A DNA stretch of 7,475 bases. Source: T1SED10-198M sp003554345 [NCBI: Candidatus Sumerlaeota bacterium] (GTDB lineage Bacteria; Sumerlaeota; T1SED10-198M). The stretch is from the NCBI GenBank assembly GCA_003554345.1, contig PWGE01000391.1, positions 1 to 7,475 of the forward strand, in the 5' to 3' direction. Position numbers and translations under genes: made by a program. This document shows positions 5,255-7,475 of the stretch, piece after piece. Under the pieces are notes generated by a model. The model was given only the letters and a program-made list of their open reading frames with translations. It was not told where the DNA came from and made no database searches. The first letter of the stretch is position 1. Every line of letters starts with the position of its first letter.

Positions 5255-5908
5255 ATGGCGCAAGAAAAACTGATTATTTTTGATCTCGATGGAACACTCA
5301 TTGATGATACAATCTATATCTGGAAGACACTGCATGAGCATTTTGAAACCGATCCTCTTCGTCGCCGCCAGGCTTACCAGGATTATCGGGCCGGGAAGAT
5401 AGATTATAACCGGTGGGCTCAAATTGACCTCGAATTGCTTAAGGACAGGAATGTTTCCAGAAATGACATAGATGCCCTTTTTGAAAACCTGAAACTGGTT
5501 CCCAATGCACGTGAAACTCTCCTTTCTCTCAAGAATAGAAGCTGGAAAATGGCAGTTATATCCGGATCTGTTGACCGCGCTCTTTATTCTGTTCTCCCCG
5601 ATGCCGATGAATTATTCGATGATGTTTTTATCAATGTTTTGAAGTTTGATAAAAAAGGGTTTCTCCAGGATATTGTGCCTACTCCTTTTGATATGGAACA
5701 TAAGGCGGCAGGGTTGCATTTTCTGGCAGATAAGTATAATATAAATATTCAGGATGTCGTTTTCGTTGGTGACAATGATAATGATGTCCATATTGCCCGG
5801 GAAGCAGGCATGAGTATAGCATTTAATTCCAAGTCCCGCCAGCTTGAGAGGGTTTCGACTTTTGTTGTTGCAGAAAACGATCTTAGAATAATTTTGACCT
5901 GGGTGTAG
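5255..5908 (+). CDS. HAD-superfamily phosphatase, phosphoserine-phosphatase-like (SerB-like)
   Basis: Haloacid-dehalogenase-fold hydrolase using an Asp nucleophile and Mg2+. Motif I is FDLDGTL with nucleophile Asp10 and acid/base Asp12; motif II is ISGS (Ser103); motif III is probably Lys150; motif IV is GDNDNDVHIAREAG with metal ligands Asp173 and Asp177. The helical cap between motifs I and II (~16-82) includes RAGKIDYNRWAQID, resembling the small cap of the SerB-like class. The length (217 aa) fits. The substrate is not determined; phosphoserine is one possibility but no serine-pathway gene is nearby. The ATG at 5255 is the only start (in-frame TGA at 5222) yet has no Shine-Dalgarno and sits just after the pfp terminator. 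The next gene follows after 9 bp, so this may head a pilus-motor operon. Confidence 0.85.
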   Translation: MAQEKLIIFDLDGTLIDDTIYIWKTLHEHFETDPLRRRQAYQDYRAGKIDYNRWAQIDLELLKDRNVSRNDIDALFENLKLVPNARETLLSLKNRSWKMAVISGSVDRALYSVLPDADELFDDVFINVLKFDKKGFLQDIVPTPFDMEHKAAGLHFLADKYNINIQDVVFVGDNDNDVHIAREAGMSIAFNSKSRQLERVSTFVVAENDLRIILTWV

Positions 5909-5917
5909 GGTGAAATA

Positions 5918-7105
5918 ATGAAAAAACTGGGAGAACTCCTTGTTAAGTATGACCTTGTATCCCCCGCTGATCTGGAAAAAGCTCTTGAACTCCAGAAACA
6001 TACTGGTCTTCGAATAGGGGATCAGCTTAAGGCAATGGGGGTTATCAGGCAGGATGAGATAAACTGGATTGTTACCAAGCAATATAATATCCCCTATATT
6101 ATTCTTAATAAGGATATAATTGATAAAAGAGTATTTGAGTCTTTCCCCTTTCCGGTGTTGATGGAACATGACATTGTGCCGGTCAGGGAAGAGATGGGCG
6201 TCTTCTATTTTGCTGTTCCTGATCCTTCTGAAGAGGATACTGTTCAGGTTGTCTCGGAACTTACCAACGACAATTACTCTCTGGTTCTGGCGGAATACGA
6301 AAGTATTCGGGCAATTTTACAGAAGTTTTTTCCCCTCTTTCCCTTTCCCCTGCATCATCTGCAGGAAAATAATTTTGACGATGCAAATCGCCTGGGATTT
6401 ATTTCCACCCCCGGGGAGCTTATCTCTTTTTTTGCCGGTTTCAGTCAGCAATTTGCCCTTGAAGAACTGTCCGTTTTTCCCTCCGATGATACTCTCTATG
6501 TTACCGGCCTGGGACGGTCCGGGAAAGAACTGCAGGGTCCGGTGCCTCCCTGCTGGAATGAAGTGTGCAAGATGATTGCTGACCCGGGTTATTATCCCTT
6601 TTTTTATTCTTATAAAGGTTCTCTGTATGCCTGCTATTTTATGGCTCTTTCTAACCAGGTCACTTCGGGTTTTCTAATGAAAAAAGAAGAGATAAACCTA
6701 TTTGACAAAAGAGTCTTTTTGCAGTATAATAAGGACCTGTGGCATGAATTATCGAAAACTGATATTCCCTCTGTCTGGGTTTTTTCCCTTTCTTATTACA
6801 ACAGTCTGGCCTGTTTTCATATTATGTATAAAATGTTTTTTCGCCGGGCTGTTATCTTCAATCAGCTCTGCCACAGAACACTTCCCGTACCGTATTTATT
6901 TTTTCCCCCGCGATGGGGCTATCCTTTTAAACATTGCTCCGTATTGAAGGATTCAACATCGAAAAGTGATGTGAGAATTGAAAAGGAAGGGAAGATTTTC
7001 TTGATTGATCACCAGAAAAGTCTGGACATTGACAGAATTGACCGTCCCTTGATGCATGTGTATGATGATGGCGAAAAAAATATACGGCTTGAATTTGTAA
7101 AATGA
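5918..7105 (+). CDS. MshEN (GspE N-terminal) domain protein with degenerate secretion-ATPase-like C-terminal region
   Basis: Residues ~1-138 form an MshEN/GSPII_E_N domain as found at the N-terminus of PilB, GspE and MshE ATPases. Two 24-residue repeats are visible (3-26, KLGELLV...LELQ; 32-55, RIGDQLK...VTKQ), followed by the domain's second half with FAVPDPSEED (98-107). In some members this domain binds c-di-GMP. Residues ~168-290 can be laid, by eye, over the N2 region of PilB-type ATPases (ALEELSVFP where ASDIHIEP is expected). At the expected Walker A position there is only SLSYYNSLAC (290-299), and no Walker B, Asp or His box follows. The 395-aa length is far below the usual ~550-600. 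Codon use is even throughout with no sign of a frameshift. GGGTGA at 5908-5913, beside the HAD stop, serves as ribosome binding site. The stop overlaps the pilT start. It is probably a non-catalytic relative of PilB/GspE; a regulatory role is inference. Confidence 0.75.
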   Translation: MKKLGELLVKYDLVSPADLEKALELQKHTGLRIGDQLKAMGVIRQDEINWIVTKQYNIPYIILNKDIIDKRVFESFPFPVLMEHDIVPVREEMGVFYFAVPDPSEEDTVQVVSELTNDNYSLVLAEYESIRAILQKFFPLFPFPLHHLQENNFDDANRLGFISTPGELISFFAGFSQQFALEELSVFPSDDTLYVTGLGRSGKELQGPVPPCWNEVCKMIADPGYYPFFYSYKGSLYACYFMALSNQVTSGFLMKKEEINLFDKRVFLQYNKDLWHELSKTDIPSVWVFSLSYYNSLACFHIMYKMFFRRAVIFNQLCHRTLPVPYLFFPPRWGYPFKHCSVLKDSTSKSDVRIEKEGKIFLIDHQKSLDIDRIDRPLMHVYDDGEKNIRLEFVK

Positions 7106-7475
7106 TGGATATTGTTGACTTACTGCGCTTTGTTAAAGAAAGCGGTTCTTCTGATTTGCATATAACCACCGGTATACCACCTGCCTACCGTTTGGATGGT
7201 AAACTGCAACATTTTGATTCGAAACCCTTACAGGGTGATGAAGTTCATGAAATCATTTATGGCATTTTAAGTGATGGTCAACGTAAAACTCTTGAAGAAA
7301 AAAAGGAGCTGGATTTTGCAGTAGAAATACCAGATGTGGCACGTTTTCGGGGAAACGTGTTTTTTCAGAAAAATGGTAAGGCGGCGGTTTTTCGAACTAT
7401 TCCCACTGAAATTCTTTCTCCCGAGCAATTGGGGTTACCTTCTGTTTTGACTAAGTTGACTCATCAGGAAAAAGG
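7102..7475 (+). CDS. pilT: Type IV pilus retraction ATPase PilT, N-terminal part (runs off window)
   Basis: PilT is the hexameric cytoplasmic ATPase that drives pilus disassembly and twitching motility. The 124 codons present cover most of the PAS-like N-terminal domain. Visible are SSDLHITTGIPPAYRLDGKL (16-35, the PilT form of the SDLH motif), KELDFAVEI (68-76), RFRGNVFFQKNGKAAVFRTIP (81-101), and LSPEQLGLPSVL (105-116). The reading frame is open to position 7475; the Walker A motif would follow just outside. The start is ATG 7102, overlapping the previous stop as ATGA; a second ATG at 7105 is equally usable. No clear Shine-Dalgarno is seen, so coupling to the MshEN gene is likely. The closely related PilU is an alternative, but PilT fits best. 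Confidence 0.92.
   Translation, partial: MMDIVDLLRFVKESGSSDLHITTGIPPAYRLDGKLQHFDSKPLQGDEVHEIIYGILSDGQRKTLEEKKELDFAVEIPDVARFRGNVFFQKNGKAAVFRTIPTEILSPEQLGLPSVLTKLTHQEK

Follow-up and report, generated by a model that had tools for sequence, protein, structure and literature searches.

A Walker-A-less MshEN protein encoded upstream of pilT in Sumerlaeota, a candidate pseudo-motor partner of one PilT subfamily

Introduction

How cells decide when PilT retracts the pilus is an open question, and the locus described here raises it in a concrete form: what does a protein do that starts like a PilB-type ATPase, stands directly upstream of pilT, and carries none of the catalytic motifs of a motor? The locus comes from a draft genome of Candidatus Sumerlaeota (454 contigs). 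The stretch of DNA that was analysed, hereafter the window, is 7,475 nt long and makes up the whole of contig G000:C31. The gene in question, which we call X, is an uninterrupted reading frame with an ATG start. An initial annotation, made from the DNA and its translations, took the product for a retained, catalytically dead paralogue of the PilB/GspE motors. Having followed up that reading, we propose with moderate confidence that X is a PilB-derived pseudo-motor, most likely a non-hydrolysing partner of PilT that serves as a brake or clutch on retraction in response to c-di-GMP.

Results

The locus

The features of the locus are collected in Table 1. After the MshEN domain, X continues for about 250 residues that have no match in Pfam or NCBIfam. 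The initial annotation had remarked that no GxxGxGK[ST] exists in the protein, and a motif scan of the whole window protein confirms this: it contains no G....GK[ST] and not even a GK[ST], and it is equally devoid of GE[IML]R and C..C. By the same scan, Walker A (GxxxxGK[ST]), Walker B (GE[IML]R) and the C..C of the zinc-binding cysteine module, which is typical of the PilB/GspE ATPase family, are each absent from all eight X proteins. The intact PilB and PilT sets were chosen by motif, so their own Walker A counts serve as no control. X is also short, at 395 aa against the 580–665 aa found in 18 of 21 rows of intact PilB candidates from the phylum (the other three measure 871–913 aa). An intact PilB is encoded elsewhere in the window genome.

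Table 1. Positions of the X gene, its domains and the adjoining pilT in the window.
Feature	Position (nt)	Strand	Extent	Basis or remark
X gene	5918..7105	+	395 aa	ORF call, codon use, motif scan
Tandem 24-residue c-di-GMP-type motifs	5924..6073	+	residues 3-52	NCBIfam
MshEN C-terminal subdomain	6083..6334	+	residues 56-139	Pfam MshEN
N2-like domain	6395..6658	+	residues 160-247	single-sequence model and profile comparison
Putative remnant RecA-like core	6740..7102	+	residues 275-395	by comparison with orthologue P0004 and by position
Expected P-loop slot, without Walker A	6767..6817	+	residues 284-300	register by eye
Overlap of X stop and pilT start	7102..7105	+	4 bp	ORF coordinates
pilT, N-terminal part	7102..7475	+		TIGR01420, E 1.7e-32; contig ends before Walker A

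The overlap of the X stop with the pilT start may couple the translation of the two genes. Elsewhere in the window, a gene for a HAD-type phosphatase lies directly 5' of X (5255–5908) and has weak relatives in six other genomes of the phylum. On the minus strand, positions 142–2466 hold three genes, which encode a CxxCxxCC protein, a 187-aa protein without a Pfam match and a 174-aa protein with only weak matches of coiled-coil type.

A second contig of the same genome, G000:C69, opens, at its Walker A, within a pilT that resembles those of the X clade (L158, 2–637). The eight best matches of this pilT are six X-linked PilTs, the PilT of the fusion described below and the PilT of genome G012, at 279–301 bits, while the other rows among the matches listed reach 244 bits at most. 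C69 therefore probably continues the window contig. On C69, the first pilT is followed by a second pilT-like gene, a pilB, a pilT and a PilB-like gene; if the two contigs are indeed continuous, X would have an intact pilB in its own gene run.

Relatives of X in the phylum

Six orthologous loci (L107–L112) were obtained by crossing the MshEN and pilT matches by eye. Each encodes one open MshEN protein of 420–460 aa, followed by pilT and then by a second pilT-like gene. The six syntenic orthologues likewise have no Walker A, contrary to the intact ATPase cores in relatives that the initial annotation had named as a sign of a local lesion. It had also suggested a search for orthologues with HAD, MshEN and pilT as neighbours. 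A cassette of this kind is not supported: no HAD relative was found in these six loci (phmmer, E 1e-3), and the conserved unit, present in all of them, is instead X, pilT and the second pilT-like gene. An eighth member, P0009 from genome G004, was found by the full-length profile and does not adjoin pilT. (A remnant P-loop read by eye in P0009 had no HMM support and was discarded.) X is directly upstream of pilT in the other seven of the eight members. Taking the first pilT start codon, the two genes overlap by 4 bp in four of these seven (the window, L108, L109 and L111) and are separated by 2 bp in L110 and 3 bp in L112; in L107 the pilT start is ambiguous.

A hint of the partner comes from a ninth relative, likewise recovered by the full-length profile, in genome G002, in which an X-clade MshEN is joined to a PilT that possesses Walker A, without a pseudo-core (L154:4602–6446, 614 aa). 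No second MshEN-PilT fusion was found among the matches listed for 386 genomes. Because the fusion has MshEN and PilT and dispenses with the pseudo-core, it suggests that the role of the pseudo-core in X is to bring MshEN to PilT. Gene order and this natural fusion together lead us to favour PilT as the partner of X.

Two further Sumerlaeota genomes, G012 and G016 (loci L116 and L183), keep the pair of X-clade pilT and second pilT-like gene. No hidden X was found upstream of pilT in either, and in G012 that place is taken by an ORF that looks protease-like by eye. MshEN proteins occur in other settings as well. One Sumerlaeota family has, in four genomes (G027, G017, G015 and G025), a pilT that does not belong to the X clade and is closely followed by a gene for a short MshEN protein (L122:5209–5913 and L125:1263–1976; partial in L104 and L106), which measures 234–237 aa where complete. 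G002 also encodes a 321-aa MshEN protein (L126:2199–3164) whose C-terminal half appears membrane-spanning by eye, and which clusters with G003 and G022 proteins in an MshEN tree built without the dead PilBs described next.

Walker-A-less PilBs upstream of pilT in other families

MshEN-pilT pairs outside Sumerlaeota were chosen by eye, by crossing two lists, among the matches listed. Twenty regions were fetched and 17 of them contain a pair (L181, L182 and L183 do not). The upstream protein is full-length and lacks Walker A in 11 pairs, is a short MshEN protein in three, and is an intact PilB in the remaining three (G317, G359 and G084). The 11 dead PilBs, of 498–614 aa, come from 11 genomes with 10 family labels, and each is encoded directly upstream of a related pilT. 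Here 'directly upstream' means on the same strand with no other motor or MshEN ORF in between; L169 has a gap of 277 bp and L177 one of 91 bp, and L165 and L166 have an ambiguous pilT start.

Compared singly with the PilB HMM, nine of the 11 dead PilBs match at E 1e-6 or better, with up to 203 bits (L165 and L166 have no single match), and as a profile the set matches PilB with probability 100 and E 4.5e-56. GxxxxGK[ST] occurs in none of them. At the aligned Walker A lysine, 10 of the 11 have another residue, for example in GPRESGRT and GPTGSGCS, and L176 keeps the lysine; GEIRD is intact in none, the aligned Walker B glutamate remaining in L164 and L169. Several of these full-length proteins retain cysteines of the zinc-module type (C..C). 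The Asp and His boxes of the PilB/GspE family were covered for this set only. The short MshEN proteins upstream of the same pilT subfamily (L170:2014–2823, L171:1720–2523 and L172:2307–3086; 259–269 aa) gave no match to the PilB or PilT HMM.

To lessen the bias from adjacency, the 30 top-ranking PilT matches from outside Sumerlaeota were taken in order, and 29 of them were inspected (all except rank 28, G053:C36). Nine have a Walker-A-less MshEN protein directly upstream and none has an intact PilB; no MshEN was found for the other 20, three of which (L190, L194 and L198) lie where the contig ends within 1.6 kb upstream. The reading of X as a dead motor is not only supported but broadened, with Walker-A-less, full-length PilB-like proteins filling the same slot in other families. 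With similar dead motors occupying this position in further bacterial families, X looks like a retained retraction regulator.

The PilT tree, many rows of which were selected by adjacency and which is hence no random sample, places all 20 tested PilTs beside X, a fused MshEN, a dead PilB or a short MshEN in one clade (98/95). This clade has 39 rows, and for 19 of them no MshEN neighbour was found. The three PilTs adjoining an intact PilB fall outside it. The PilT fragment of the window groups with the X-linked PilTs at 88/76; a BLAST search with this fragment fails to distinguish X-linked PilTs from the rest. Two changes, versus 15.4 when shuffled, account for the Walker-A-less label in the MshEN tree, and no single clade emerges. 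The window protein sits there on a long branch beside the dead PilB of L169 (82/77), and beside intact PilBs once the dead PilBs are omitted (92/74), so that we are unsure of its own position. From these comparisons we read X as what is probably a reduced Sumerlaeota branch of a Walker-A-less PilB lineage that stands upstream of one PilT subfamily.

The same neighbourhood can be read from the extension side. X might be a decoy that blocks extension, either by sitting on the PilC/PilM platform or by joining PilB hexamers, with its position next to pilT reflecting only shared expression. We consider this unlikely. In its favour, X descends from PilB and not from PilT; an intact PilB is found upstream of pilT in G317, G359 and G084, and the slot is therefore a known pilB slot; and an intact pilB would lie in the same gene run if C69 continues the window contig. 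Moreover, a protein that binds and inhibits PilB is on record in Acinetobacter baylyi, namely CpiA, which is described as having no homology to known domains (PMC8213720). On the other hand, it is PilT to which the X-clade MshEN is fused in G002, the six loci L107–L112 yielded no intact PilB, and the associated PilTs constitute a clade of their own, apart from the PilTs beside intact PilB. We thus keep to a partnership of X with PilT, acting on retraction.

The MshEN domain and its c-di-GMP motifs

The MshEN domain recognized by eye in the initial annotation is borne out by two family models: PF05157 matches the C-terminal subdomain (E 4.1e-13), and NF053729, named 'c-di-GMP_motif', matches the tandem motifs with 48.2 bits (cut-off 38). 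TIGR02538 covers residues 3–138 of the window protein only. The NF053729 cut-off is reached by all six proteins tested, by the G002 fusion barely (38.7 vs 38). MshEN receptors of c-di-GMP consist of tandem 24-residue motifs with a 5-residue spacer, are joined to many different domains, and conserve Arg/Leu/Gly/Leu/Leu/Gln in both motifs, according to PMC5013675. At positions 1, 2, 3, 10, 17, 21 and 24, the window protein reads K-L-G-D-L-L-Q in the first motif and R-I-G-G-I-V-Q in the second. The first motif has thus exchanged Arg1 for Lys and Gly10 for Asp, and Gln24 is retained in both motifs. The first-motif Gln24 is missing from the other seven X proteins and from the fusion, whose first motif was read by eye, and Arg1 is missing from five of these eight. 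GGDEF proteins are encoded in all 10 genomes searched.

These motif changes bear on a different reading, in which X is purely a docking adaptor, recruiting PilT by way of its MshEN contacts without any sensing of c-di-GMP. The degraded first-motif residues in seven of the eight X proteins and the fusion fit it, and changes of this kind are reported to abolish c-di-GMP binding in XpsE (PMC5013675). It accords less well with the attainment of the NF053729 cut-off in every protein tested, with the presence of both Gln residues in the window protein, and with the GGDEF proteins in all of the genomes searched. We judge it improbable, and continue with X as a candidate c-di-GMP-responsive protein.

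The part of X after MshEN

Direct sequence comparisons of the C-terminal part with the motors found no link. PilB and PilT HMMs gave no signal over shuffles on the eight X C-termini, the HMM of the 11 dead PilBs detected none of the eight X proteins, and hhalign of X against PilB and PilT was negative. Of the proteins tried with leave-one-out C-terminal HMMs, only P0002, P0003 and P0004 were recovered convincingly; P0007 reached E 0.33, and the window protein, P0005 and P0006 fell short as well. In 40 genomes of the phylum, the C-terminal profile finds only its seven building proteins below E 0.02, and a contig scan with the window protein as query found no relative. A search of 386 genomes with the C-terminal 250 residues gave matches in 17 genomes besides the window genome at E<=0.1 (best 0.007, some with stops), which were judged to be chance; the same search missed the six orthologues later recovered via gene order.

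In hhalign, the X profile aligns with the dead-PilB set over 219 collinear columns with a score of 31.3 (P 0.0027), at a probability of only 11.4; among 100 column shuffles the highest score is 16.4, and reversal gives 13.1. The C-terminal part of the window protein alone scores 24.7 against the dead PilBs, with residues 162–215 at the start of N2, where 200 shuffles reach at most 22.3. At the level of sequence, it is only this profile-profile comparison that appears to connect X to the dead PilBs.

Predicted structures point the same way. The AF2 model of the window protein was made from the single sequence, without an alignment, and is of low confidence (pLDDT 39). In the VIA comparison of this model with the PDB, MshEN domains and GspE/PilB/PilF/BfpD motors make up all of the first 18 rows, and in the motor rows residues 160–247 of the window protein, outside MshEN, fall on N2. 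Thus, residues 163–222 lie on PilB 181–240 (Z 5.5, 59 aligned, rmsd 2.9) and residues 160–247 on EpsE 102–212 (Z 6.3, 63 aligned, rmsd 3.1). Foldseek gave no match below E 0.001 for this model, with GspE and PilB filling the first eight ranks. The N2 layout that had been read by eye at residues 168–222 agrees with the VIA alignments and with the profile comparison. The P-loop slot placed at about residues 284–300 fares less well: it is plausible, as the model has a strand at 287–290 and then a helix at 296–307 (pLDDT 39), but it has no independent support in the window protein, and residues 248–395 gave no fold match in this single-sequence model of pLDDT 39.

For the core, we turn to the orthologue P0004, modelled by AF2 with seven alignment rows (pLDDT 63.5, pTM 0.40). 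Its best Foldseek E-values are to GspE 4pht (6.6e-11) and PilB 3jc8 (3.2e-10). In VIA, residues 174–428 of the model lie on PilB 5tsh_D 182–520 (Z 10.5, 240 residues, rmsd 9.1), the high rmsd suggesting a different domain placement in the model. For the C-terminal part, an archaeal RuvB-like helicase, 5f4h_A, ranks above PilB (Z 11.3, 235 aligned, rmsd 8.7), and for the core RecA, RadA, FlaH (4yds) and CobU tie with PilB. As modelled, the core is of RecA type; given these ties, it is labelled PilB because of the domain order.

The C-terminal part was therefore not placed in an unrelated fold by structure prediction, the outcome that the initial annotation had named as refuting its reading. That the half after MshEN is an unrelated domain joined to it, a notion to which the missing profile-sequence matches to PilB, PilT and the dead PilBs lend some substance, is very improbable in view of the structure matches of the models of the window protein and P0004 and of the collinear alignment between the X and dead-PilB profiles.

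A retained reading frame

Codon use, said in the initial annotation to be uniform along X, is so in all three thirds, in each of which the true frame scores best (0.096, 0.153 and 0.068). No convincing PilB/PilT match was found in any frame of 6200–7105, where the highest score is 5.3 bits, with E 0.0024 against a set of six sequences. A frameshift in X was rejected on these two grounds. Between the congeners L108 and L109, the X C-terminus has a pN of 0.525, versus 0.729 for shuffled codon pairing (dS is saturated), next to 0.182 for MshEN and 0.085 for pilT. The pseudo-core is under some constraint, yet changes about ten times faster than pilT (dN about 0.9 versus 0.09). That X is a decaying pseudogene or an assembly lesion of an ordinary pilB, as this fast-evolving C-terminus in two congeners might suggest, is already disfavoured and hardly credible, since its reading frames are open in eight genomes and precede pilT in seven, codon use is uniform with no convincing out-of-frame motor remnant, C-terminal pN is less than the shuffled expectation, and the same genome holds an intact PilB elsewhere.

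Discussion

X is composed of MshEN, N2 and a shrunken RecA-like core, the last seen only in the orthologue model, and Walker A, Walker B and the zinc module have been lost. With MshEN above the c-di-GMP cut-off, GGDEF proteins in all 10 genomes searched, and a natural fusion, we favour X as a brake or clutch that acts on one PilT subfamily in response to c-di-GMP. In such a mechanism, the degenerate N2 and core would dock on the PilT motor, or on a platform site that PilT uses; MshEN would read c-di-GMP and thereby change how PilT is engaged; and X would act as a brake or clutch on pilus retraction. Contact with PilT, binding of c-di-GMP and the direction of the effect are predictions drawn from sequence.

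The same arrangement may be widespread. The type IV pilus machines of many families might carry a dedicated dead PilB and one PilT subfamily, often with a second PilT-like gene, as a c-di-GMP-gated retraction module. The Sumerlaeota forms would then show the dead PilB shrinking and, once, its replacement by an MshEN-PilT fusion, and the Geobacter mshE-pilT3 pair may be another case. We offer this generalization tentatively, as a possibility that falls somewhat short of an even chance. A type IV pilus-dependent twitching system is reported for all MAGs of PMC8092238.

If the proposal is true, retraction motors possess dedicated pseudo-motor regulators. A retained dead PilB, one PilT subfamily, a second-messenger domain and a fusion that hints at the partner together make it directly testable. 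There is also a caution for annotation, in that proteins labelled 'PilB' or 'MshE' beside pilT may be catalytically dead. Among the matches listed for open-licence PMC papers, judged by titles and the openings of abstracts, we found no description of a dead PilB as a partner of PilT.

Among known systems, X is closest in build to the PilB/GspE/MshE ATPases (TIGR02538, TIGR02533; PF05157 and PF00437), with which it shares the order of MshEN, N2 and, by the orthologue model, RecA-like core; like X, a PilB-type ATPase gene can stand upstream of pilT. It differs from them in having no Walker A, no Walker B of the GE[IML]R type and no C..C pairs, and in its length relative to most intact candidates. 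ArlH/FlaH, beside the archaellum motor, is, like X as proposed here, a RecA-fold partner of a secretion-type motor, and unlike X it binds ATP and has no MshEN domain. With the MshEN receptors of c-di-GMP, X has the tandem 24-residue motifs and the 5-residue spacer in common, although its first motif is partly degraded. The excerpts of that work on which we draw name an ATPase, glycosyltransferase, receiver, HD-GYP, CheA, CheX, cyclase and kinase as partners of MshEN, with no dead motor in the series (PMC5013675).

In Geobacter sulfurreducens, a pilB-like mshE (GSU0435) is reported upstream of pilT3 (GSU0436), which is one of the species' four pilT genes; two further Geobacter species share this gene order (PMC5065972). 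Unlike X, GSU0435 is described as an MshE homologue and putative ATPase, and its co-transcription with pilT3 as unlikely (PMC5065972); by analogy of gene order, a kinship with X would be a lead only. CpiA, as described, differs from X in having no homology to proteins of known function, in acting on PilB and in being no motor paralogue, and resembles X, as proposed here, in that a type IV pilus motor is regulated through binding (PMC8213720).
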